DNA of 64,000 bases from Subdoligranulum sp. (GTDB lineage Bacteria; Bacillota; Clostridia; Oscillospirales; Ruminococcaceae). The DNA lies in the NCBI GenBank assembly GCA_014799685.1, contig JAAVHN010000029.1:90131-154130 (forward strand), in the 5' to 3' direction. Both the position numbers and the translations under genes were made by a program. Below, one piece after another: positions 24,041 through 39,690 of this stretch. The first letter of the stretch is position 1. The number at the start of each line of letters is the position of its first letter. A model generated the notes under the pieces. The model did not search any database and was not told the DNA's origin. It saw nothing but the letters and a program-made list of their open reading frames with translations.

Positions 24041-26461
24041 TCAGTCGATCTTCAGAATCAATTCCAGCACGCGGCCGGCGCAGGCCTCGAGGTCGGCGCG
24101 GGTGATGAGGCCCTGTTCCATGGCGGCCTGCACACGCTCGGGGTATCCGGTGGCCATCTTCAGATCGTTGCCGGCCAGGATCTCCTTGTAATGCTCGGCG
24201 CGGTTCCACCAATCGGTCATCACCAGGCCGGTATAGCCCCAATCCCCGCGCAGGATGTCGGTGAGCAGCTCCTTGCTCTCGGAGGCGCGGCGGCCGTTGA
24301 TGATGTTGTACGCGCTCATGATGGCCCAGGGCTGAGCCTCGCGCACAATGATCTCGAAGGCGCGCAGATACAGCTCGCGCAGCGCGCGCTGCGAGACGCG
24401 GGAATCGCTGTGCTTGCGGTTCGTCTCCTTGTTGTTGCAGGCGAAGTGCTTCACCGTCGCGGCAACGTGCTGCGATTGAATGCCCTTCACCATCGACGCC
24501 GCCAGCTTGCCCGTGAGCAGCGGATCCTCAGACCAATACTCAAAGTTGCGTCCGCAGAATGGGCTGCGGTGCAGGTTCACGGCGGGCGCAAGCCACACGG
24601 CGATGTTGTTTTCCTTCACCTCCGCGGCGGCGGCGGCGCCCACATTGGCAGTGAGCTCGGTATCCCACGTTGCCGCCAGCAGCGTGGCGCAGGGCCATGC
24701 CGTCGTGCATACGCCGCAGGCGGGCGCAAGGCGCAGACCGGCGGGGCCGTCGGCCGTGGTGATGGTGGGCACGCCGTACTCCGGCAGATTGCCCATGCCG
24801 AATGTGTTGGAAACAGATGTATTCGGCTGCCCGCCCAGCAGATGGATCAGATCGGCGTCGCTCAGCTGCGCCATAAAATCTTCCAGCGTCATTTTTCCCT
24901 CGGCCACAGCCGTAAAGGGCGTTGCGCCGTCCGCATAGGGCTTTACCATTGGGTGACGATCCCGGCCGCGCACGGCGGGGAACATGGCCTCTTCGGTACC
25001 GGCAGGCAGCCGCTGCAATGCGTTCTCGTTGGGGTCGATGGCCTCGCACACAGGCAGCGCCTCATAGCTGCCGTCCGCCAGCAGGCGTTTTTCCAGGCTC
25101 GAGGGCGCCAGGCTGTCGCTCACCTCGCGCACAACGGCCGTCTCTGCCTGCTCGTAGGCATAGCCAAGCTCCTGTACATCCCGCACGGAGGTGCCGAGAT
25201 AAAGCGTGTACCGCCCCTGCTCCAGCACCCAGGCGCTGCGGCGGATCCTGCCCAGATCGTCGAAGCTCGCCATCTCGCCGGCGGCAAAGCACAGCGTCAG
25301 CACCTCGCTCTCGCCGGGGGCGAGCAGCTTTGTCTTCCCGAATGCCGCCAGGCTGCGGGCCGGCTTTTGCAGCGCCCCCTGCGGTGCGGCAAAATACAGC
25401 TGCACCACCTCTTTGCCGGCGCAGCTGCCGGTGTTTGTCACACGGGCGCAGACATAGATCTGCCCGTCCTTTTCGCCGGCCGTCAGCGGTTCTACGGAAA
25501 ATTCGGTGTAGGAAAGGCCGAAGCCGAACGGGTACAGCACCTTTTTGCCGGCGCCCGGCAGCGTTTCAAAGTAGCGGTAGCCCACATAGATATCCTCGGT
25601 GTACGCCGCATAGTGCGGCGATTCGAAGAAGCCCTCGGTGGAGGGGTAATCGCCCAGATCCTGCGCGAAGGTGTCCGGCAGCTTGCCGCAGGGGTTCGCC
25701 TTGCCGGTGAGCAGTGCGGCCACGGCGCTGCCGCCCTCCATGCCCGCCTGATAGGCCAGCAGCACGGAGGGAATGCGCGCGTCATCACAGAACCACGAAA
25801 CGTCCACCACGCCGCCGACGTTGAGCACCAGCACCACTTTGTCGAACGCGGCGCACACCTGCTCGACGAGCGTGCGCTCGGCCCCGGTGCGGTAAAAATC
25901 GCTCTTGCCGAAAACGCGCGCGGCAAGCTGGGGCATTGTCAGCTCGTGCTCCCACGGATTCTCCTCGTTCTTGTCGACATACTCGTTGTCGGAGCGGTCC
26001 CAGCCCTCGCCGGAAAAGCGGCTGATGACGATGACGGCCACATCCGACGCTGCGCGCGCCGCCGAAACAAGCTCCGCGGAAAGCGGAGCCTCGGCCATCA
26101 GGCCGGGCTGGTCGCCGGCGGCGTAACGGTCGGCCACATAGCGGCGGTAAAAATCCGAAAGCGGCTCGTAGAGCGGCACCTGCTCCTGTTTGAGGCCTTC
26201 GTAAACATTGCGGGTATAGGCAACGGTCACATCGCCGCTGCCGCCGCCGCCCTTTACATAGTCAAAGCTGCCCTTGCCGAACAGCGCCACGCGGGCGCCT
26301 TTGGCCAGCGGCAGCACGCCGCCCTCGTTTTTCAGCAGCACCATGCCCTCCTGCGCAGCCTGCCGCGACAGGGCGATGTGCGCGGACGAGGCGGTGACAT
26401 AGCCGTCCGGCGTAAGCGGCAGATTGGGCTGGAACATTGCACGTGTCCATTTTTTTGTCAT
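24041..26461 (-). CDS. Glycoside hydrolase family 3 with inverted domain order
   Basis: QEGMVLLKNEGGVLPL (normally C-terminal domain) is N-terminal; barrel motifs LPTITTADGPAGLR-like, VKHFACNNKETNR, GYTGLVMTDWW are C-terminal. Confidence 0.9.
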   Translation of the reverse strand: MTKKWTRAMFQPNLPLTPDGYVTASSAHIALSRQAAQEGMVLLKNEGGVLPLAKGARVALFGKGSFDYVKGGGGSGDVTVAYTRNVYEGLKQEQVPLYEPLSDFYRRYVADRYAAGDQPGLMAEAPLSAELVSAARAASDVAVIVISRFSGEGWDRSDNEYVDKNEENPWEHELTMPQLAARVFGKSDFYRTGAERTLVEQVCAAFDKVVLVLNVGGVVDVSWFCDDARIPSVLLAYQAGMEGGSAVAALLTGKANPCGKLPDTFAQDLGDYPSTEGFFESPHYAAYTEDIYVGYRYFETLPGAGKKVLYPFGFGLSYTEFSVEPLTAGEKDGQIYVCARVTNTGSCAGKEVVQLYFAAPQGALQKPARSLAAFGKTKLLAPGESEVLTLCFAAGEMASFDDLGRIRRSAWVLEQGRYTLYLGTSVRDVQELGYAYEQAETAVVREVSDSLAPSSLEKRLLADGSYEALPVCEAIDPNENALQRLPAGTEEAMFPAVRGRDRHPMVKPYADGATPFTAVAEGKMTLEDFMAQLSDADLIHLLGGQPNTSVSNTFGMGNLPEYGVPTITTADGPAGLRLAPACGVCTTAWPCATLLAATWDTELTANVGAAAAAEVKENNIAVWLAPAVNLHRSPFCGRNFEYWSEDPLLTGKLAASMVKGIQSQHVAATVKHFACNNKETNRKHSDSRVSQRALRELYLRAFEIIVREAQPWAIMSAYNIINGRRASESKELLTDILRGDWGYTGLVMTDWWNRAEHYKEILAGNDLKMATGYPERVQAAMEQGLITRADLEACAGRVLELILKID

Positions 26462-26548
26462 GGTCAAACTCTCCTTGGATATGATAGAATGATCGCCGCC
26501 GCATCCGGCCGGCCGATCGTATCTCCAGTATAGCATAAGTAAGCATAA

Positions 26549-26583
26549 AAAAACACTGCCCATCGCAAAAAATGGGCAGTGCC
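26549..26583 (-). terminator. Terminator between permease and GH3 gene
   Basis: Minus strand cactgcccattttttgcgatgggcagtgttttttt. Confidence 0.8.
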
Positions 26584-26594
26584 TGGGAATGCGG

Positions 26595-27422
26595 TTATTC
26601 CTTCACGGCGCCCGCGGTAACACTGCTGATGATGTACCTCGAGAAGAAGGCAAACACAAGCAGGATGGGAACAACGGAGATGGCGACGGCCAGATAGATC
26701 GCGCCCTGGTTCTTGTTGATATCCGAAGACGCGCGCAGGGTGGCCATCATGACGGGCAGCGTCATTTTGCCGGGCTTGCTGATGAGGATCATCGGCAGCA
26801 GGTAGTTGTTCCAGTTGCCGATAAAGCCCATGATGCCCATGGTGGACACGGCCGGCGCCATGATCGGCAGAACAATGCGGTTGAAGATGTAAAACTCATT
26901 CGCACCCATGATGCGGGCCGATTCCATCAGCGCGCGGGGCACGGTGGATTCGGCGTACTGCTTTAAGAAGAACACGGTGCCCGCGGCGGCGATGCCCGGA
27001 ATGATCAGCGGGATATAGCTGTTGAGCAGGCCCAGCGAGGTGCACAGCTGGAAGAAGCCGATCAGCGAGAGCTGGCCGGGGATCATCATGAACACGAGGA
27101 TCACGCCGAACAGCACCTTATTCCCCTTGAAATCGTAGAACGCCATGCCGTAGGCTGTCATAGCCGAGAAGTAAGCCGAAAGCAGCGTGGCGGGCACGGC
27201 CACGATCAGGCTGTTGAGCATGCCGAGGAACGGGTTGAAGTAGTTGAACACCTGTTCCATATTGGCGGCGGTGGCACTGCCCGGGAGCAGCGTAAAGCCG
27301 CTGGCGATCTCATTGCCGGTGCGGGTCGCGTTCACCAGCATCAGCAGGAAGGGGAAAATGCACGTCAAAGCCAGCAGAACCAGAAACAGATAAACGAAAA
27401 ATTTCGCAATGCGTGTTGACAT
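26595..27422 (-). CDS. Carbohydrate ABC transporter permease (MalG-type)
   Basis: C-terminal ABC permease signature: ALMESARIMGANEFYIFNRIVLPIMAPAV. Confidence 0.93.
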   Translation of the reverse strand: MSTRIAKFFVYLFLVLLALTCIFPFLLMLVNATRTGNEIASGFTLLPGSATAANMEQVFNYFNPFLGMLNSLIVAVPATLLSAYFSAMTAYGMAFYDFKGNKVLFGVILVFMMIPGQLSLIGFFQLCTSLGLLNSYIPLIIPGIAAAGTVFFLKQYAESTVPRALMESARIMGANEFYIFNRIVLPIMAPAVSTMGIMGFIGNWNNYLLPMILISKPGKMTLPVMMATLRASSDINKNQGAIYLAVAISVVPILLVFAFFSRYIISSVTAGAVKE

Positions 27423-27439
27423 TTCAATTCACCCTCCTA

Positions 27440-28357
27440 TCACTTATCTTTGTTGAAGAATTTCAGCTGGATGAGCGTGACGAGCAGGATGATGAGGAAC
27501 AGCGCATAGGCCACGGCGGAAGCATAGCTTGTCTGGATGCTGCCGGGGGTGAAGCCAAATTTGTACAGATACATCATCACGGTCTGCACATCGTCGTACG
27601 AGGCGGTGGCCGCGTTGACCATCAGGTACGGCAGATCGAACATCTGCAGGCCGCCGATCAGCGAGGTGATCGCCACATACATCATGATGGGGTTGATCAG
27701 GGGCAGCGTGATGCGGCGGAAAATCGTCCATGTGCCGGCGCCGTCAATCGCGGCCGCCTCGAAGTAATCCTTGCTGATGCCCTGCACCGAAGCCATCAGC
27801 ATCAGGAACGAGTTGCCGAACCAGATCCAGCTCTGGATGACGGCGATCGTGTAGGGAGCCGCGTTCGGGCTGCCCAGCCAGTCGATGGGGTTGTATGTAG
27901 CCCCGAAGAGCTTATAGATGCCGCTGAGCATGACATTGAACGTGCCGAAGCGGTGATCGAGCAGCGTCTGGAACAAAAACGCGATGGACGTAGCGGCGAT
28001 CAGGTTCGGCAGATAGTAGATGATGCGGAACTGCTGCAGGCCCTTGATCTTCCAGTTCAGGTTGCTGAACACGATCACCAGCAGGAACGCAAGGCCCAGC
28101 TGCAGAACGATATTCACGCCCCAGATCCGGACGGTGTTCCCCAGCGCCCGCCAGAAGAACTTATCGGTAAATACACGGACATAGTTGTCCAGCCCCACCC
28201 AGTTCGGATCGCCCACGACCTTCAGGTCGGTGAAGCTTAAATACAGGGTGCGCAAAACCGGATAAATATTGAAGATGGCAAAAACGATCACGAAAGGAGC
28301 AACAAAAGCATAGCCCCAGCGGTTATACGCTGTCAGTTTGCTGCGCTTTGACTTCAT
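27440..28357 (-). CDS. Sugar ABC transporter permease (MalF-type)
   Basis: DYFEAAAIDGAGTWTIFRRITLPLINPIM. Confidence 0.93.
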   Translation of the reverse strand: MKSKRSKLTAYNRWGYAFVAPFVIVFAIFNIYPVLRTLYLSFTDLKVVGDPNWVGLDNYVRVFTDKFFWRALGNTVRIWGVNIVLQLGLAFLLVIVFSNLNWKIKGLQQFRIIYYLPNLIAATSIAFLFQTLLDHRFGTFNVMLSGIYKLFGATYNPIDWLGSPNAAPYTIAVIQSWIWFGNSFLMLMASVQGISKDYFEAAAIDGAGTWTIFRRITLPLINPIMMYVAITSLIGGLQMFDLPYLMVNAATASYDDVQTVMMYLYKFGFTPGSIQTSYASAVAYALFLIILLVTLIQLKFFNKDK

Positions 28358-28447: not shown

Positions 28448-29833
28448 TTACGCATCGCGCTCGATCACAAGCTCCGGATAAGTGGAGGCAACTTTGTCGT
28501 AGAACTCGTTGACTGCATCCTCTCTGCTCAGCTCGCCGGTCTTGATCTTGCCGATCGCAGCGCCCCAGGCGTCGCCGATCTGCTGGTCGTACTGGGTAAC
28601 AGTGCTCGGATCGATCTTGGCGGCCTGCTCAGCCCAGAACGCATACAGCTTCTGGTTGCCGTAAACCTCGTTCTCGTCGTCCTTATGGCGCTCCTGCGCG
28701 GAGAGCAGAGCAACAACGTCGCCCTCGGAGAATTCGATCCACCAGTCGGCCTCGTCGTCATTCAGCGTAGCGAACTGGATGAAATCCCAGGCCAGCTCCG
28801 GATTCTTGGAATAGGTGGAGATGCCCATCAGCGCGCCGCCGCCCCAGCCGGGGTTCGGGCCGGCGCAGACGCCCCACAGACCGGACAGATCGCCCACGTG
28901 GTCGCGCAGCGTCAGTGTGCCCCAGGTGGGCAGTGCAAACGAGAATACCTCAACCTGCTCGTCGTTCGCGTGCTCGCTCTCGAAATCCTCGGACCAGACG
29001 TTGTCGTCCGCGCTCAGGATCGGCACAGAGCCGGCCATGGCGAGGTACCACGGGGTGGACCAGGCGGAGCAGTAAGCGGTCAGGTCCTTCTGATACAGCT
29101 CGATGACCATGTCCATATAGTCCCAACGGCCCTGGCTCACGTTCAGCTTGCCGTCAACGACCCACGGCTCGTCGTTGGAGAAGTAGTTCATCTCAGAGTC
29201 GGAAGCGAAGCAGCGGTAGCCGGCATCCTTCAGCGTCTGGGCGGTCTGCAGAATGGTATCGTAATCCTTGAACAGCTCGCCGATCGCATCGGCATCGTCG
29301 GTGCCGAACACCTTCTCGGCGATATCACGGCGATAGAAGATGCCGGCCGGCGTGATCTGATAGCCGATCGCGCGCTGTACACCGTCATTGTCCTTGCCGA
29401 ACTGCCAGACATAGTCCGTCTGCTTGCCCGCATATTCCTGGGCGCCCAGAGCGTCCAGATCGGCGAACGCGCCATACTCGAACATATCGCCCAGCATCTG
29501 GGGCTCGCCCATGATGATGTCAACGGTGTCGTCATGGCCCATGATGGCCGTCTGCAGCTTTGTGGGATAATCGGCCGGAGCGATGACGTTGACTTCGACC
29601 TCAACGCCGGTCTGCTCCTGATAGTAAGCGCCGATGTCCTTCAAATCGTCCGCCAGCGCCCAGATGACGAGCTTCTGGCCGGAAGTGCTGCCGCCGGTGC
29701 TGCCGCCGCCGTTGCCGGTACCGGCGCCGCCGTCAGCCGTGGGCGTGGAGCTGTCGCCGCCGCCGCATGCGACAAGGGACAGGCCCATGACGAGCGCCAG
29801 CAGCAACGCAAGAATTTTGGTTGCGTGTTTCAT
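28448..29833 (-). CDS. Sugar ABC transporter substrate-binding lipoprotein
   Basis: MKHATKILALLLALVMGLSLVACGGGDSS; extracellular solute-binding family 1 features. Confidence 0.92.
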   Translation of the reverse strand: MKHATKILALLLALVMGLSLVACGGGDSSTPTADGGAGTGNGGGSTGGSTSGQKLVIWALADDLKDIGAYYQEQTGVEVEVNVIAPADYPTKLQTAIMGHDDTVDIIMGEPQMLGDMFEYGAFADLDALGAQEYAGKQTDYVWQFGKDNDGVQRAIGYQITPAGIFYRRDIAEKVFGTDDADAIGELFKDYDTILQTAQTLKDAGYRCFASDSEMNYFSNDEPWVVDGKLNVSQGRWDYMDMVIELYQKDLTAYCSAWSTPWYLAMAGSVPILSADDNVWSEDFESEHANDEQVEVFSFALPTWGTLTLRDHVGDLSGLWGVCAGPNPGWGGGALMGISTYSKNPELAWDFIQFATLNDDEADWWIEFSEGDVVALLSAQERHKDDENEVYGNQKLYAFWAEQAAKIDPSTVTQYDQQIGDAWGAAIGKIKTGELSREDAVNEFYDKVASTYPELVIERDA

Positions 29834-30036
29834 TGTTTTATCCTCCTTATATTTTTGTGCGGCGGAGAGGTTGACACGGGTAACGCCGCACGTTTGATCC
29901 CCCCGCAAGGGGGGCTGTGTCCGATCGGGAATCGCCGGGCTGCGCGCCTGCACCGCAAATCGGGGCGGGCCTCCCCGGCCGTCCGGCAAAATGCTCAGAG
30001 CGGAGGGTCTGCCGGGCTATGCCGCAAAAAACACGC

Positions 30037-33000
30037 CTACGGGCGGGCCAGTACCACGTCCGCCGCGGCAAAGCCGCCATCGCGCAGTTCTTCGGCCAGC
30101 GCGCCGCGCACCTCGCCGTCCCCGGCCGCAGCCGCAGTGCCGTCGGCGCGGGTGAGCGTGATGCTTTCCACACGGTATTCACCGGGGATGTGGTCCGCGC
30201 CGTCCGCCATGTGGTAGGTGACAAGCGTTTTGCCAAGGAACCGGGCGCTGACGGTGCGGCCTTCGCCGATGAGATAGCCCGGAATGGCGGGCTGCAGGCG
30301 GCAGACAAGCGTATCGCCCTCGAGGGCAAACGGTTCACCCCCAAAGAACATGCGGCGCCAGATGCTGAGGAATTCCGCCGTGGAGCCGCTCAGGCGCGCC
30401 ACAAAACCCCTGCCGTGGATGCTCTTGTCCGGGTTTGCGCTGCTGGCGAGGAACGAGGAATTCTCCAGCGTGCTGCGCCCGTACATTGCGGGGTCGAGGA
30501 ACGGGATGCATGTGGTGTGCAGATCCTCGAAGAACTCCTGATATAAGCCGCAGTGCAGCAGCTCCAGAAGGTATTTATACTCCATGTGCAGCCAGATGGA
30601 GGCGTTCTCCAGCCAGCCCGGCGTGAAGGTGCGCGCACGGCCCAGCTCGAACGAGCAGTCCTGGATCGACGCGTTCACGCGGTACATCGAAAGCTTTTTG
30701 TCATACAGCTCGTTTGCGCGCACCCTTGCGTACTGCGCGCGTTTTTCTTCCAGGGGCGCGGCCAGCTTCAGCCAGCGCACGGGCCCTTCGAGGAACGCGG
30801 GGATGCGCACCAGGGAGAAATGCTGCGGGTGGATGCCCGCCTCGTCCCTGGTATAATCGGTAACGTCATAGGCAAAATAGGCGGGGCACACCTGCGCCTC
30901 GGGCGCGGCCCCGGCTACGCCTGCCTTCACCGCCTTTTCAATGCCCCGGTGCACGGTCTCGGCCAGTTCTGCCAGCCGCCCGGCCAGCGCCCCGGCGGAA
31001 TACAACGTGCGTTTGCCGCTCACACCCTGCCAGGTTTTGGCGCGGTAGTCCTCTTTGATGTCGTTCATCTCGTTCCAGAACGCGGGCAATTCCTCCTGCG
31101 TCCGGATCGCGTTCCGGTGCGCAGCGTTCACGCCGCACAGCGCCTCTAAAAACGCGGCGACCTCCTCCAGCAGTGCGGTTTCGCCGGGATGCCGCTGCAG
31201 CGCGGCAATGGTATAGTCCAGCATGCGGGCCAACTCGTAGGTTTCGCACATCGAGGAGCCCAGCAGCCCGGGCAGGCCGTTCAGCGCGTCGTACCAGCCG
31301 GGCTTTCCGCCCTCCATCTCAACGCCCATGCCGTACGGATCCAGCGCGGCGAACTTGGCCGCACACAGCAGCGTCAGCTTCTCGATCAGCGTGCTGCGCA
31401 CGTGTGCCCCCTGCGCATCGCGCAGGTACAGATGTTCGGGCGTGCGGCAGGTGCTCTCGTCCAGCGCATAATACTGGCGGATGCCGTTTGCCGTCTCGGC
31501 ATAGCGTTTGGCGCGCGGCGCCACGCACACCTGCGAAACAAACCAGGTATAGGCCGGCTCATAGAGCAGATCGCGCTCCTGTTCCGGGAACACAGCCAGA
31601 TATTCTTCGACGAGGTCGAGGTTATATGTCCAGTGGTCGGTCCAGTAGCCCTCGCCGAAGCTTGCGTTCAGCTGTGCGTCCGAGGCCTCCAAAATACGCG
31701 CAAACAGCTGCTCCGTCAAAGCCTCGTCCGCCGCATCCTGCAGCGCCGCATACAGCTTGCCCGGCGTGAACGGTGCGCGCAGCAGCGCCTGCAGCGCCGT
31801 GCGGGCGGTTTCGTCCAGCGGCTGCAAAATCCCGGCAGCCTTTTCTTCGGGCAGCGAATATGTCTTCATCTCCACGCTCAGCGGGTTTGCGCCGTCCAGC
31901 TGGATCAGGCTGTAAAACGCGTGGATATTTTCCCGGCCGACAAACGGCGAAAAGAACGTATCGCTGCGCCGGTTCTGGTTTACATCGCGGAAATTCCCGT
32001 TGCCCTGCGTATAAAACTCCGGCAGCATCGAGAAATAGTTGTAATCGCGCTCCAAATCGCCGTGCTTGCGGGAATAGACATAGAACACCTTATCGTTCCC
32101 CAGCCGGATCGGCTGGCCGCCCCGCAAAACGTTATCCATATAGGTATACCGGCTGTAGGCGTCGAACAAAGCGTCGCCCGTGGAGGTCTCGATGCAATCG
32201 GTCAGCTCCTCCGTGAGGGCGCGCGCGCGCGCAAGCTTTGCCTCAAAATACGCGCCGTCCCGCGGCGTTTCTAAAAACACGTCCAGAAGCGCTTTGCTTT
32301 CCACCTGGCCGATCGCCTCTGTGAACGACAGGCTCTCGCCGGGCCCCAGCGTGCGCTCCAGCGCGAAAAACGCGCCGGGCAAAAGGTTCGAGGCATTCTG
32401 CTCCTGCGCGAATACGCCCGCGCAGCCTCCCCCGGCAAAAACCAGGGGCTTTTTCAGGCCCGTATCATACGAAAAGACGGCGCCCATATCGGTGACAACC
32501 GGCAGCAGCGCGCCGGTTTCATCAAAGCCAAGCGCAAAATTGCCGCCCGCGATCTCGCTCACCTGCGCGGTATCATCCTGACTCGCGCGCACACGGTAAT
32601 AGGGCCGGCGCGCGGCGGTGTCCTCCACCTGCATCGACGCCTTGATCGTCTGAAGCATGTTTTTCAGCGGGTCGTCGCCCACGCCGTAGGGCACGAGCTC
32701 CGGCATCCCGTCCAAAACCTCCAGCCGGCAGCTTTCCTTGCCGGTATTGGTCACCTTCACATGCCGCACCAATGCGCCAAGGCGCTCCTCGGGCAGTACA
32801 AAATAGCAGACTTCTGTGCGAAGCCCGCTTTCCGGGTCGTTTTCTTCAATTTCCAGCGTATTCATCCCGATGGACATATCGCAGTGCTCCGCACACCGGA
32901 AAAGCTCTGAAAAATGCCCGTCCCGGCGCACAAATGTGCGAAAACCGGTTTGTTCCACCGAGGCATAGGCCCTGTGCGCGGGCAAAAACTCCATGATCGC

Positions 33001-33165
33001 GTGGTCCTTGTTGTCCACACCGAAGCTGACGACACCCTGGCCGCGGTTGACATAGTAGCACCACAGCGGGATACCCTGAATGCCCGCAATGCCCGGCAAA
33101 AAGCTTGCAAACGGCGGTTTTTGCCCATAGCGCTGCACACGAAAGATCTGTGTTTCGTTTTTCAT
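30037..33165 (-). CDS. Large GH94-like glycoside phosphorylase (GH94/GH149/GH161 to be distinguished)
   Basis: ~1042 aa; GIPLWCYYVNRGQGVVSFG, YGVGDDPLKNMLQ, cellobiose-phosphorylase-like C-terminal half. Confidence 0.75.
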   Translation of the reverse strand: MKNETQIFRVQRYGQKPPFASFLPGIAGIQGIPLWCYYVNRGQGVVSFGVDNKDHAIMEFLPAHRAYASVEQTGFRTFVRRDGHFSELFRCAEHCDMSIGMNTLEIEENDPESGLRTEVCYFVLPEERLGALVRHVKVTNTGKESCRLEVLDGMPELVPYGVGDDPLKNMLQTIKASMQVEDTAARRPYYRVRASQDDTAQVSEIAGGNFALGFDETGALLPVVTDMGAVFSYDTGLKKPLVFAGGGCAGVFAQEQNASNLLPGAFFALERTLGPGESLSFTEAIGQVESKALLDVFLETPRDGAYFEAKLARARALTEELTDCIETSTGDALFDAYSRYTYMDNVLRGGQPIRLGNDKVFYVYSRKHGDLERDYNYFSMLPEFYTQGNGNFRDVNQNRRSDTFFSPFVGRENIHAFYSLIQLDGANPLSVEMKTYSLPEEKAAGILQPLDETARTALQALLRAPFTPGKLYAALQDAADEALTEQLFARILEASDAQLNASFGEGYWTDHWTYNLDLVEEYLAVFPEQERDLLYEPAYTWFVSQVCVAPRAKRYAETANGIRQYYALDESTCRTPEHLYLRDAQGAHVRSTLIEKLTLLCAAKFAALDPYGMGVEMEGGKPGWYDALNGLPGLLGSSMCETYELARMLDYTIAALQRHPGETALLEEVAAFLEALCGVNAAHRNAIRTQEELPAFWNEMNDIKEDYRAKTWQGVSGKRTLYSAGALAGRLAELAETVHRGIEKAVKAGVAGAAPEAQVCPAYFAYDVTDYTRDEAGIHPQHFSLVRIPAFLEGPVRWLKLAAPLEEKRAQYARVRANELYDKKLSMYRVNASIQDCSFELGRARTFTPGWLENASIWLHMEYKYLLELLHCGLYQEFFEDLHTTCIPFLDPAMYGRSTLENSSFLASSANPDKSIHGRGFVARLSGSTAEFLSIWRRMFFGGEPFALEGDTLVCRLQPAIPGYLIGEGRTVSARFLGKTLVTYHMADGADHIPGEYRVESITLTRADGTAAAAGDGEVRGALAEELRDGGFAAADVVLARP

Positions 33166-33314
33166 CAGGGCAGCCTCCCTTCCAAAATGCACACGGGTGT
33201 TCACAGCGTTCCAGCGCCGGATCCTACCGAATTCTATAAGTGTAATTATAACTATATTGTTTTTTTAATCTACAAAATTTCTGGCAAAAATGTCAGATTC
33301 ATGACCTGTTTTCC

Positions 33315-33343: not shown

Positions 33344-33427
33344 TTTGGTATAAAATTAACAAATCTGCGCGCTTTTCCGGGCGGCACGGGCTTAATTTTC
33401 AACAAAGCGCGGAGAGGAGATGTTTTT

Positions 33428-34309
33428 TTGAACACGCAGGAATTACGGCAGGAATGGTTTGTGCGGGAATCGCAGGAGACGGAAAACGAGGTCTTTCACC
33501 GCCCCTTAAGCGCGGAATATGCCTTTTGGCGGGCAGTTGCCACAGGAGATATCGAGTATGTGCGGCGTGAGTGCAAGGAGAACCGCTTCATCGACACGGG
33601 ACGGGGGGGGGGGGTTGGATGTCTTTCCAGAGACCCGCTGATAAACTTGAAATATCACCACGTTATTTCCACCGCCATCATCACGCGGGTGTGTGTGGAC
33701 GCCGGCATGTCGATGGAACAGGCGTTCCGGCTGAGCGATTTTTATATCTTAAAGCTGGATAACGCCGGCTCCATGCAGGCCGTGGAACGCATCCACGACC
33801 AAATGGTCATGGATTTTACGGGCAAGATGCAGCGTTTGTCCAAAAAACCGGAAACCTCGAAGCCTGTCGCCGAGTGCATGGAATACATTTACGCCAACAT
33901 CCAAAAGCGCGTGACGGTGGAGGATCTTGCGGCTTTCACAGGGCTTTCGCCCAGCCATCTGTCGCGGCTGTTTAAAAAGGAGATCGGCATCTCCGTCAGC
34001 GACTACATCCGTGAGAAAAAGGTGGAAAAGGCGCAGGAGCTGCTGCAGTACAGCGATTTCAGCTTAATCAAAATCGCCACCGACCTCGCCTTCTCCTCGC
34101 AGAGCCATTTCACGCAGGTATTTCACGATTTTACGGGCATGACGCCCAAAAAATACCGGGACACGCATTCCGACGCCGACCGGCTCGATTTTTCACACGG
34201 CAGGAAGCCCGCGCCGGGCGGGGATCCCTTGCCCGGCGAAGATGGTTTGCCCGGCGGGGATCCTTTATCCGACAGAGATCCCTTGCCCGACGGGAGCGCT
34301 CCCACCTGA
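33428..34309 (+). CDS. AraC-family regulator with 12-G homopolymer in the coding sequence
   Basis: SPSHLSRLFKKEIGISVSDYIREKKVEKAQELLQYSDFSLIKIATDLAFSSQSHFTQVFHDFTGMTPKKYR; TTG start. Confidence 0.9.
   Translation: MNTQELRQEWFVRESQETENEVFHRPLSAEYAFWRAVATGDIEYVRRECKENRFIDTGRGGGVGCLSRDPLINLKYHHVISTAIITRVCVDAGMSMEQAFRLSDFYILKLDNAGSMQAVERIHDQMVMDFTGKMQRLSKKPETSKPVAECMEYIYANIQKRVTVEDLAAFTGLSPSHLSRLFKKEIGISVSDYIREKKVEKAQELLQYSDFSLIKIATDLAFSSQSHFTQVFHDFTGMTPKKYRDTHSDADRLDFSHGRKPAPGGDPLPGEDGLPGGDPLSDRDPLPDGSAPT
33603..33614 (+). repeat. Poly-G tract, 12 G
   Basis: gacGGGGGGGGGGGGttggatg inside the AraC ORF. Confidence 0.9.
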
Positions 34310-34446: not shown

Positions 34447-36849
34447 TCAGGACATCAGCAGCTCGATCTCCGATTTTTCCGTGAGCATCGATTCCGGGAT
34501 GTAATTGCCGTCCACGGCCGTTCCGTTGACGGTGAGCTGTTTGCAGCCGGACTCGGCGCCGCCGGGGTTTTTCACCACAATGTGCAGATGCCTGCCCCGG
34601 AAGTCCTTTTCAATTTCCAGCGTCTTCCACTCCCTTGGGATGGAGGGCGCTATTTTGATGCCGTGCAGGTCGGGGCGCATGCCGAGGATGCCCTCCACAC
34701 AGCCGACCATCATCGTCGAGGCCGTTCCCGTCAGCCAGTGCACATGCGAGCGCCCGGCGCGGGGGCTGTGCTTGCCCTCGGTGAACTGCCCGTAGCAGTA
34801 CGGCTCGATGCCCCGAATCTCGGCGCGGTCGTTCTGCATCGAGGGGGCGTTCTCTTTAAAATAGGCAAACGCGCGGTTCCCGTGGCCCAAAAGCGCCTCC
34901 GCAAGGATCAGCCAACCCTGCGATTGCGAGAACACGGCGCCGTTTTCCTTTGCGCCCGCGTTGTAGATCACCGCAAAGGCCCCGTCGAACGCGTGCGCAC
35001 GGTAGGGGGGATCCATCAAAACCGCCCCATAGGGGGTATTCAGGCGGCTGTACACGTTTTCCATCACCATCGCCGCCTGTTTTTCGTCTGCAAGGCCGCT
35101 GATGACGGACCAGCTCTGCGGGTTCAGCCACAGATTCGCCTCGGGCGCCGTGCGCGCGCCGATCACCTCTCCGTCCTCGGTAAAGCCGCGCACGAAGCGA
35201 TCCTCATCCCAGCACAGCCCGCGCAGCCGATCGCCCAGCTGCGCCTGCTCGCGCTCAATCCACGCGAGGTCGCCGGTGTGCCCCTTTTCCTGCGCAAACA
35301 GCTTCATCAGCGTATAGGCGTAGTAGCACTGGAACGCCACGAATGTGGATTCGCCGTTTGCCCCAAGGCGCAGGCAGTCGTTCCAGTCGGCGTGCAGCCC
35401 GGCGGGCATCCCGTGCGGGCCGAGGTGGTTTTGGGAAAAATCAAGCGCGCGCCGGAGGTGCTCGTACACGGTGCCCGCGTCGCGGTCGGCAAAGGGGATT
35501 ACCTCGTCAAGGAACGCGGCGTCGCCCGTCTCGGCGATATATTTGTACACCGTGGGGAACAGCCAGAGCGCATCGTCCGCCCGGTAGGCGGGGTGCCCGG
35601 TCTCCTTCACATACGAATCGTCGTCCGGCGTATCCTCGTGGCCGGGGTCGTGTGTGAATTTTACAAGCGGCAGCCCGCCGCCGTTTGCCGCCTGCGCGCT
35701 GAGCATAAAGCGCAGCTTTTCCGCCGCCTGCTCTGGCGCGAGATGGATCACGCCCTGGATGTCCTGCACGGTGTCGCGGTAGCCGAAGCCGTTGCGCAGG
35801 CCGCAGTAGATGAACGAGGCCGCGCGCGACCAGGTAAACGTCATAAAGCTGTTATAGGCGTTCCATGTGTTCACCATCACGTCAAATTCCGGGCACGGCG
35901 TCTTCACCCGGAAGTGCGTAAATTTGCTGTGCCAATCCTGCCGGAGCGCTTCCCACTCGGCCCGGCACACCGCCCCGGGCGCCTCGTAGGCCTGCATCAG
36001 CGCCGCGCTTTCCGCGGCGTACTTCTCGCCCAGCAGGAACGCGATGGTCTTCGTCTCGCCGGGCTGCAGCGTCACCACGCACGAGAGCGCGCCGCAGCCG
36101 TTGCCGTTGTAATTGAGGGTATTGCCCAAATCGCCGCCCGCAACGCCGGCGGGGTCGCCGTAATCGTGATACGCGCCCAAAAACGCGCTGCGCTCGCCGC
36201 AGTACGAGGCCACCGGCGCGCCGGCCAGGCCGAAGAAGCGCTCGGTCACCCGTTTGTTGTCCATCTCGACGCCGTCCAGGTTGCCGTGGATCAGCTGGCG
36301 GATGCGGTTTTTCTCGAACAGCGTCCGCGTGATGAACAGGGAATACTGCAAGTCCACCTGATCAAGCTCGTAATTGCTGTTGTTCGTGAACTCCGCATAG
36401 CCCGTCAGCGTGAGCGCGCGCACTTTGTCCGAATCGTTGCGCACCGTCAGCTCCCACACCTCGTGCGTTTTCCCCAGCGGCACATAGTACAGCGCCTCGC
36501 TGTGAATGCCGGCGTAGTCCGCGCCGATTTTTGTGTAGCCCGTGCCGTGGCGGCACTCGCTGCGATAGCTTGCAAGGTCCTTGCCCACCGGCTGCCACGA
36601 CGCGGACCAATAATCGCCCGATTCGTTGTCGCGCAGGTAAATGTACCGGCCGGGGCGGTCGAACGCGTTGAACACGTACCGCAGGATGCGCCCGTTCGCG
36701 CCCGATTTTACAAAGCTGTAGCCTCCGGCGTTGCCCGAGATGAGCGCGCCGTATTCGGGCGAACCCAGATAGTTGGCCCAGGGCTCCGGCGTATCCGGAC
36801 GCGTAATCACATATTCACGGGCCTGTTCGTCGAAATATCCGTATTGCAT
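34447..36849 (-). CDS. GH94 cellobiose/laminaribiose phosphorylase-like
   Basis: MQYGYFDEQAREYVITRPDTPEPWANYLGSPEYGALISGNAGGYSF, ECRHGTGYTKI, ADWNDCLRLG. Confidence 0.88.
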   Translation of the reverse strand: MQYGYFDEQAREYVITRPDTPEPWANYLGSPEYGALISGNAGGYSFVKSGANGRILRYVFNAFDRPGRYIYLRDNESGDYWSASWQPVGKDLASYRSECRHGTGYTKIGADYAGIHSEALYYVPLGKTHEVWELTVRNDSDKVRALTLTGYAEFTNNSNYELDQVDLQYSLFITRTLFEKNRIRQLIHGNLDGVEMDNKRVTERFFGLAGAPVASYCGERSAFLGAYHDYGDPAGVAGGDLGNTLNYNGNGCGALSCVVTLQPGETKTIAFLLGEKYAAESAALMQAYEAPGAVCRAEWEALRQDWHSKFTHFRVKTPCPEFDVMVNTWNAYNSFMTFTWSRAASFIYCGLRNGFGYRDTVQDIQGVIHLAPEQAAEKLRFMLSAQAANGGGLPLVKFTHDPGHEDTPDDDSYVKETGHPAYRADDALWLFPTVYKYIAETGDAAFLDEVIPFADRDAGTVYEHLRRALDFSQNHLGPHGMPAGLHADWNDCLRLGANGESTFVAFQCYYAYTLMKLFAQEKGHTGDLAWIEREQAQLGDRLRGLCWDEDRFVRGFTEDGEVIGARTAPEANLWLNPQSWSVISGLADEKQAAMVMENVYSRLNTPYGAVLMDPPYRAHAFDGAFAVIYNAGAKENGAVFSQSQGWLILAEALLGHGNRAFAYFKENAPSMQNDRAEIRGIEPYCYGQFTEGKHSPRAGRSHVHWLTGTASTMMVGCVEGILGMRPDLHGIKIAPSIPREWKTLEIEKDFRGRHLHIVVKNPGGAESGCKQLTVNGTAVDGNYIPESMLTEKSEIELLMS

Positions 36850-36924: not shown

Positions 36925-39639
36925 TCATGCGAGCTCGATTCCGATGCGGCTGCCCTGTGCGGGCAGGCGGGAAATCTCCGCGCGGCGCAGGATTGCAGCG
37001 CCGCCCGCAATGGGCAGCTCCGCCGGCTGCGGGTCTGCGGGCGTCGTCAACACCGCCCTTGCAACGCGGTACGCGCCGCAGTCCTTCCCGGCGGGGTTTA
37101 ACACAGTGATGCAGAATTCCTTTCCGGCAAATTGCAGCGAGAGGGATGCCTTGCCCTGCGCGTCAAACTGTTCGCGCACAAGCTTTGGGCAAACCGCAAG
37201 GTCGCCCCATACGCCGCGCACGCCGAACATCTCGTTCATAAGCGTGAGCAGGTACCAGCTGGCCGCGCCCGTCAGATAGCAGTACAGTCCCCGCCCGTCG
37301 CGGTTGAAGTATTCCGGGATGCCGGGGTACATTCTGCCGCGCTCAAAATTCAGCGACGCATCCGCCAGCGCCCGCAGCGCCTTGTAGCCCTCGCGCACAA
37401 AGCCCCGGCGGTAGAGGGCGTTCGCATACATCACGGCCATGTGGCAGAACACCGCGCCGTTTTCCTTTTCCCCGTAGGCAAAGCCGAACATGCGCCCCAT
37501 ATCAAATTTCAGCTCTTTGAAATCGGTGTTCAGCCGGTAGCCGCCGATCTCCTCACGGTACAGATAACGGTCCGCGCTGCGGGTAATGCTGCGCACCTGC
37601 GCGTCGTCGGCCGTGCCGCTCATGGCGGCGAACACCTGCCCCGTCAGCATCATGCGCACGCCGTTTTCGGTAAAGCCCTCGACGGGGCGGCCGTGGTTAT
37701 CGTAGTAGCTGTTGAACCAGCCCTCGCCTTCTCCGCCGTCGATCCACTCCTGCCGGCGCAGATGCTCTGTCATCCATGCGGCCTTGCCCTCAAGGTTCGC
37801 CGCGATCTCCAAAAGCGGAACGGAAACCGTGCGTCCGCTCACGCTGTGCGCACACTGCCGCGCATACGCCTGCAGCAGCGCGTTTTTCCTGGCGGGGTCC
37901 GCGTACAGGGCATGGCCGCCGGCCAGCAGCGTCTGGGTTTCCTCCAGCAACGCGGCGGTCTCCTGGCCGTTCGTCTCTGCAAGGCGCCGCAGCAGCGCGG
38001 CCAGATCGCGCAGGTTCCCGGCATAAGCGCAGGTAAACGCGACGCTCTCGCCGTTTTCGGCCGCCATATCCAGCGCGTCGTTCCAATCCGCGCCGCGCAG
38101 GCGGCAGATGTTGTGCGCGCCCACCTCATAAAACGCCGCAAGCTGCTGAATCAGCAGATGCTCGAGGATGCTGCCCTGATAGACTGCGCCGTCCTGCGCG
38201 CGCTGCCAATTGCCCTCCTCGCTGCGCCACTGCCGGTCGATCTCCGTCCCCCGCACGGCCTGCGCGTCTTTAAAATAAGGTGCGGGAACATTCAGGATCT
38301 GCACATCCCCGGTTTGGTCGATGTAAAGCTTCGCCGTCATCAGCGGCCACAGCGCGTGGTCCATCCACACGCGGGCGATACCGTTGCGGTCGGCAATAAA
38401 GTTGCCGTCGCCGGCCCCGATGATGGTGGCGTTCGTCCCGTCGATGCGCACGCCGCCGAAATTGGCCTTGATCATGCCGCCGACGCCGTCCGGATCCATC
38501 AGCAGCAGCGAGAGGCAATCCTGCCACAGATCGCGCCAGCCCCGGCCGCCCCGGCCATAATCGTGGTGCGGCAAAAACGAGCAGCCGTAGATGCGGCGCA
38601 GCATCGGCTGGAAGCTCACCCAGCGCATCAGGCGGTCGAAATCCGCATCGCCGGTGTGGCAGCGGACATTCACCTTTTCCTGCCAATAGCGCTCCACTGC
38701 CGCAAGCGCCGCGCCCGCCTTTTCGGCCGAGCCGTAGGCGGAAAGGATGCGCTCCATCTCCTCTTCCGCGTCGCACACGCCCAGCAGCAAAATGTATTCC
38801 GCGCGCTGTCCCGGCTGCAGGGTGATTTGGGGAAACACCAGGCCGCCCATGGCCTCGCGGCCGTCGATGGCTGTGCCGGCGGGCATCCCCTCCGCGGCCT
38901 CGCAGACGGCGCGGGGGCGCAAAAAGCTGCCGCCCTCGCCGATGAACGCATCGACGGTGGGATAAAACGCGGCGGGACGCCCGCCCCCGCCCGTGCAGCC
39001 CTGTACATAATAGATATGATGGTTTTCGCGGTGGCCCTTCTCGTCGAACGACATGGTCGGCTTCACCAGCACGCCGTTTTGCGTGGTGCGGATGCGGTGC
39101 AGCATGGAGGTGACGTTCCGGTGGTCGCGGATGTTATCGGCGCTCCGTCCATAGATGGGAACGGCGGCAACGGGCGTGACCGTCTGCGCCGCCTGGGCCG
39201 TATTGCGGATGCGTACGCGCAGCACCTCGACCGCATCGTCCACCGGGACAAACGCGGTGACCTCCGATTCCAGACGGTATTTCTGCGATGTCCGCTTCAC
39301 GGTCTGCCACATAAAGCCGGCCGTCAGCGTGCCGGCATCCTGCTCCGGGGTGAATTTTTGGCTCTCGGCCTCGGCGGAAACGCCCGTGGCCGACCAACAC
39401 CCCGCACCCTCCACGCGGCACCAGAAGTTGCGCGTGGCGCGGGCGTTGTGCAGGCTCTCGATGGTGGCAGGCTCCAGCAAAAACGTCTCCTGATCGATCT
39501 TACTGTCCCCGCCGAAATTCGGCGTCACGGCGCCTTTCAGCCCGGCGTTCCCCGCAATCGGCAGGTAAAGGCCGCTGGTATTTTCCGCGCCGTCGAGGGA
39601 AAAAACGCCGTCCTCATTCAGAAAATGTATCTTTTCCAT
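36925..39639 (-). CDS. GH94-family phosphorylase, ~904 aa, unassigned specificity
   Basis: GCSFLPHHDYGRGGRGWRDLWQDCLSLLLMDP, GADWNDALDMA, RENHHIYYVQG. Confidence 0.82.
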   Translation of the reverse strand: MEKIHFLNEDGVFSLDGAENTSGLYLPIAGNAGLKGAVTPNFGGDSKIDQETFLLEPATIESLHNARATRNFWCRVEGAGCWSATGVSAEAESQKFTPEQDAGTLTAGFMWQTVKRTSQKYRLESEVTAFVPVDDAVEVLRVRIRNTAQAAQTVTPVAAVPIYGRSADNIRDHRNVTSMLHRIRTTQNGVLVKPTMSFDEKGHRENHHIYYVQGCTGGGGRPAAFYPTVDAFIGEGGSFLRPRAVCEAAEGMPAGTAIDGREAMGGLVFPQITLQPGQRAEYILLLGVCDAEEEMERILSAYGSAEKAGAALAAVERYWQEKVNVRCHTGDADFDRLMRWVSFQPMLRRIYGCSFLPHHDYGRGGRGWRDLWQDCLSLLLMDPDGVGGMIKANFGGVRIDGTNATIIGAGDGNFIADRNGIARVWMDHALWPLMTAKLYIDQTGDVQILNVPAPYFKDAQAVRGTEIDRQWRSEEGNWQRAQDGAVYQGSILEHLLIQQLAAFYEVGAHNICRLRGADWNDALDMAAENGESVAFTCAYAGNLRDLAALLRRLAETNGQETAALLEETQTLLAGGHALYADPARKNALLQAYARQCAHSVSGRTVSVPLLEIAANLEGKAAWMTEHLRRQEWIDGGEGEGWFNSYYDNHGRPVEGFTENGVRMMLTGQVFAAMSGTADDAQVRSITRSADRYLYREEIGGYRLNTDFKELKFDMGRMFGFAYGEKENGAVFCHMAVMYANALYRRGFVREGYKALRALADASLNFERGRMYPGIPEYFNRDGRGLYCYLTGAASWYLLTLMNEMFGVRGVWGDLAVCPKLVREQFDAQGKASLSLQFAGKEFCITVLNPAGKDCGAYRVARAVLTTPADPQPAELPIAGGAAILRRAEISRLPAQGSRIGIELA

Positions 39640-39690
39640 ACTGCTCTCCTTTTGGTGCAAAGAATGCGGGTGGACGCGGCCTTTTGTTCG

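Follow-up and report, generated by a model that had tools for sequence, protein, structure and literature searches.

The DNA considered here, referred to as the window, is a stretch of 64,000 nucleotides (C29:90131-154130) from a 3.1-Mb draft genome that consists of 51 contigs, is about 91% complete and has a G+C content of 59%. Within it, a gene for an AraC-family regulator that contains a run of 12 Gs (G12) sits among genes for phosphorylases, a glycosidase and an ABC transporter, as follows.

24041-26563, minus strand: GH3 glycosidase
26595-28357, minus strand: two ABC transporter permeases (26595-27422 and 27440-28357)
28448-29989, minus strand: ABC transporter solute-binding protein
30037-33204, minus strand: GH161-type phosphorylase, divergent neighbour of the regulator (1246 bits to 9qqk, GH161A)
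33428-34309, plus strand: AraC-family regulator, 293 aa, TTG start (HTH_18, 4e-23; HTH_AraC, 6e-21)
33581-33634, plus strand: loop holding G12, codons 52-69 (from a structure model; length-variable in 36 homologues)
33603-33614, plus strand: G12 homopolymer, in frame as CGG GGG GGG GGG G
33639-33641, plus strand: stop reached on loss of one G, 70-aa product (by translation)
33760-33762, plus strand: stop reached on gain of one G, 111-aa product (by translation)
33926-34162, plus strand: HTH_18 DNA-binding domain, residues 167-245, absent from the G11 and G13 products
34447-36849, minus strand: GH94 phosphorylase, convergent neighbour of the regulator (closest solved structure, 8bou)
36925-39660, minus strand: GH94 laminaribiose phosphorylase (920 bits to 6ggy)

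An earlier, sequence-only reading of this DNA had assigned the regulator to a glucan locus, and the GH161, laminaribiose phosphorylase, GH94, GH3 and ABC transporter neighbours bear this out. The GH94 enzyme at 34447-36849 may act on something other than a glucan, since the depositors of 8bou named that structure N,N'-diacetylchitobiose phosphorylase, although the remaining genes of the locus indicate use of beta-1,3-glucan. The closest orthologues of the regulator (L013, L015 and L132) lie beside the same GH94 gene (71-73% identity) and a solute-binding protein gene, while in the next group of regulators L009-L011 adjoin GH161 and L012 adjoins both GH3 and GH161. Linkage of the regulator with GH94, GH161, GH3 or a binding protein is therefore conserved among relatives. 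Based on this gene context, control of beta-gluco-oligosaccharide use by the regulator is a well-supported inference, and the protein probably acts on the neighbouring genes as an activator. As for other identities, PADLOC gave no match that would place the regulator locus in a defence system, and although the protein resembles YSIRK-adjacent regulators, its 125.9 bits with the corresponding model (TIGR04094) fall short of the cut-off, which is 200, and its neighbours are glucan phosphorylases and not a YSIRK surface antigen gene.

The regulator exceeds the gathering score of both the HTH_18 and HTH_AraC models. A Shine-Dalgarno-like GAGAGGAG at 33412-33419 precedes the TTG start at 33428, which is credible because homologues align from residue 1. 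Between GAGAGGAG and the TTG (33412-33430) there are an ATG, which reads ATG TTT TTT TGA, and a T7 run, a second homopolymer that touches the start region of the gene. At the other end of the gene (34219-34293), an 18-bp GC-rich tandem repeat in 4.2 copies forms a C-terminal, GDPLPG-like tail that is missing from orthologues.

The G12 tract is read in frame as TGRGGGVGCLSRDPL within the 293-aa AraC-type open reading frame and, as had been proposed, it is the longest homopolymer of the window, the next-longest G/C run being 8. Pattern searches of the 3.1-Mb genome recovered 26 G/C runs of at least 7 and just three of at least 9, namely G12, which is the longest, a G11 and a C9; with so few long G/C runs, this genome has no genome-wide phasome, which counts against a switch. 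The G11 run is intergenic and occurs in an N-rich stretch of contig C4. The C9 tract (L008, G000:C29:188825-188833) is situated on the same contig as G12, 65 kb away, and is in frame in the low-complexity linker that follows the lipobox of a solute-binding lipoprotein. Extrapolation from the shorter runs of the window with Markov orders 2-6 gives an expectation of 0.0002-0.004 runs of at least 12 Gs per window and 0.01-0.2 per genome. A model of independent bases predicts 2.0 such runs per genome, although it greatly overstates the number of real G runs. Hence, G12 is longer than chance would lead one to expect and is an outlier against the genome's own run distribution, so chance composition is an unlikely source. 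Loss of mismatch repair was rejected as the cause of the tract, as mutS1 is present. Nor should an intact mutS1 be an obstacle to slippage, because for meningococcal G10-G13 tracts wild type and mismatch-repair mutants showed no difference in switching frequency (PMC4085013).

The position of the tract upstream of the DNA-binding domain, also suggested previously, is upheld by the HTH_18 match at residues 167-245. By translation, a change of one unit in G12 leads to frameshift truncation, with the G11 and G13 products both ending before the helix-turn-helix domain and losing all of residues 167-245, while G9 and G15 alleles preserve the reading frame. The sequence-only reading was thus right that gain or loss of one G truncates the protein, but the stop at 33762 that it gave to the minus-one frame belongs to the plus-one frame, the minus-one frame ending at 33641. 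Compensation by a paralogue was rejected, the nearest other match to the regulator in its own genome being 29% identical.

In an AlphaFold model of the regulator (built from a 12-sequence alignment; mean pLDDT 78, pTM 0.43), residues 52-69 are without secondary structure and are flanked by helices at 42-51 and 70-91, with pLDDT falling below 50 at residues 57-61, within the tract loop. On this model, extra glycines should be tolerated there. The loop is strongly variable in length among the 36 homologues compared (33-58% identity); none of the 36 carries the tract, and the longest G run in their loop is 2-5. The nearest orthologues have exactly three residues fewer than the regulator at this point, as would be expected if, in this species, the tract had gained 9 bases. 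This excludes a switch that is inherited and conserved. Maintenance over evolution is usual for contingency loci, but it is not strictly demanded of a young one. On either side of the tract, the protein is conserved (53-58% identity to relatives), which, together with the open frame at G12, indicates that the gene is not decaying.

As read from sequence, the tract has the anatomy of an ON/OFF switch that would operate at translation. Long poly-G tracts are prone to slippage, and given this known behaviour an elevated rate of slippage at G12 is likely. In the mechanism that we propose, G12 would be a genuine, species-specific and slippage-prone tract that expanded where the AraC-family regulator has a flexible loop tolerant of glycine, and the regulator itself would govern the adjacent locus for beta-1,3-glucan phosphorylases and ABC transport. 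Cells with G12, G9 or G15 would make the full regulator, while those with other lengths would make a stub, 70-72 or 110-112 residues long, that is devoid of the helix-turn-helix domain; the state captured in the assembled genome would be ON. Through replication slippage, a small share of the cells would lose the regulator and be able to regain it, and the locus would consequently act as an ON/OFF contingency gene. That the slippage-prone tract is a selected switch of this kind is our leading explanation, to which we assign a probability of roughly 0.48. Selected phase variation at G12 is plausible; we infer both that the tract slips in cells and that selection keeps it as a switch. The candidacy first raised by the sequence-only reading gains from a tract that is non-chance and in frame, lies in a tolerant loop, removes the helix-turn-helix domain upon frameshift and belongs to a regulator that has no close paralogue and sits in a conserved beta-glucan phosphorylase locus, and it loses from the lack of a tract in the homologues. 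Because the tract is unconserved, and because variability defines the class whereas G12 is known from one assembled genome, we do not claim it as a full member of the coding switches.

Ranking behind a selected switch, but a possibility to be taken seriously, is an unselected or recent expansion, whereby a glycine-tolerant loop in a genome of 59% G+C has drifted or slipped to G12, and frameshifts are deleterious and purged, making the tract a liability and not a switch. The tract is private to one species, and the loop in which it falls varies more in length than any other in the protein and is rich in glycine codons; furthermore, the 3' repeat is another private GC-rich expansion of the same gene, and the genome's other in-frame tract, C9, is likewise in a low-complexity linker. 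However, a hypermutable tract under counter-selection should be interrupted by synonymous codons (GGC, GGA), and here 12 pure Gs persist in a genome in which real G runs are otherwise rare.

A smaller risk, and an improbable one, is that the tract is an artefact of sequencing or assembly and that the true run has fewer or more Gs or is broken by other bases, a fault to which short-read drafts are liable at poly-G. Since the assembly is a draft in which some other contigs contain numerous Ns, the assembled length of G12 may be off by one or more, and several poly-G runs at the contig ends of congeners, including a G44, look artefactual. On the other hand, G12 is internal to a long contig, the window is free of Ns, and the tract keeps the frame of a gene that is conserved on both sides, whereas a random error in length would break the frame two times out of three. 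For a second reading of the tract, DNA similarity searches within the genus and among viral contigs yielded no other strain of the species, and a protein search of genome contigs yielded five regulator homologues, none of them from this species. It is very improbable that in-frame lengths (G9, G12 and G15) serve to adjust a linker and hence regulator activity, for even though two helices of the N-terminal helical domain flank the tract, in-frame lengths are one glycine apart and a poly-C tract gives Mga a functional length polymorphism (PMC10330708), the loop differs among homologues by several residues with no sign of constraint, and frameshift would dominate because slippage by a single base is the common event.

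A selected switch at G12 would have precedents. Coding poly-C switches in regulators are already known, and a sugar-locus regulator would be a new addition. In mga of Streptococcus pyogenes, a coding poly-C tract switches between C8 and C7, and the variation has been documented in isolates as well as in mice (PMC10330708). As with G12, this is a G/C homopolymer that interrupts no frame at its normal length and lies within the gene for a transcriptional regulator, and its slippage changes the frame and switches target genes; however, the C8 of mga is near the 3' end and pertains to a virulence regulon, whereas G12 precedes the DNA-binding domain, belongs to a metabolic locus and comes from one assembled genome. 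The bvgS gene of Bordetella pertussis, for which mixed populations are known, has a coding poly-C tract of C6/C7 (PMC1891110), and is similar in that frameshift within a regulatory gene truncates the protein and turns the regulon off, but BvgS is a sensor kinase, as opposed to an AraC-family protein whose G12 was read from a single assembled genome. At Spy1336/R28-Spy1337 of S. pyogenes, a T8-T11 homopolymer varies and acts on an AraC-family regulator gene that is adjacent to the gene for a YSIRK surface protein (PMC7098570). The regulator is of the same family as here, the present protein matching TIGR04094 below cut-off; that tract is, however, intergenic and affects transcript level, whereas G12 is coding and its slippage breaks the frame. 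Finally, in Neisseria, Campylobacter and Helicobacter, open reading frames contain long poly-G/C tracts, and one length class in three permits expression (PMC5084427, PMC6321876, PMC2823697). G12 resembles these as a long poly-G in an open reading frame, but their tracts number in the dozens and are often in surface or modification genes, in contrast to the three G/C runs of at least 9 found here. A search with partial coverage of the literature gave nothing relevant on phase variation through homopolymers, whether in Lachnospiraceae or in regulators of carbohydrate use.

Across the genus, G/C runs of at least 10 occur in seven of 11 genomes, some at contig ends, where those noted above as artefact-like are found, and others internal. 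Genome G007 has a G10 that is read in frame within the gene for a 675-aa polytopic membrane protein (L067, codon 500) as well as a G10 that splits a solute-binding lipoprotein gene between the lipobox and the mature part (L050), and in G009 a G10 splits the gene for an Ig-domain protein (L064). Additionally, G001 and G007 have poly-G between a TTGACA or an AT-rich upstream element and a -10-like box; at three sites (L054, L058 and L061) runs of G15-G22 immediately precede TATAAT-like -10 boxes, two of these sites having TTGACA upstream and two being near contig ends. Given these coding and promoter-spacer tracts in congeners, it is probable that the genus has poly-G contingency sites, which lends support to the proposed switch at G12.

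A wider search, in which 299 genomes of the family were scanned for TTGAC and TATAAT at promoter distance with poly-G between them and the reversed pattern served as a control, detected 28 TTGAC-(G8-G11)-TATAAT sites (L104-L131) in 13 genomes (G087, G181, G248 and ten others), while the control had no sites in the same 299 genomes. Seventeen of the 28 are within three genomes of one genus, where most follow one stereotyped pattern, TTGACAAAGTGCC-G8..11-TATAAT; their spacers are 15-19 bases long, and at most of them a gene for a signal-peptide protein begins 38-119 bases downstream. The genome that carries G12 has no such promoter with the two patterns used. The spacer sites resemble promoter switches such as those of porA and tp0126, in which a spacing of 17 bases gives the best expression (PMC7864442), and they are candidates for a family of phase-variable promoters with poly-G spacers in Lachnospiraceae-like gut bacteria, one that is possibly weightier than G12 and merits a study of its own.

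Slipped-strand switching is documented mainly in the surface and modification genes of pathogens. A broader and rather doubtful proposition is that the genus randomizes its carbohydrate foraging, with poly-G in sugar regulators and binding proteins giving rise to diet-related ON/OFF subpopulations; it would cover the AraC G12, the C9 linker of the lipoprotein in the same genome and the congener lipoprotein gene that is split by G10, and, if true, would be a metabolic counterpart of surface-antigen phase variation. If the G12 tract itself varies, a gut commensal would possess a heritable and reversible bet-hedging switch for the use of dietary or fungal beta-glucan, and the resulting strain-level heterogeneity would be visible in metagenomes.
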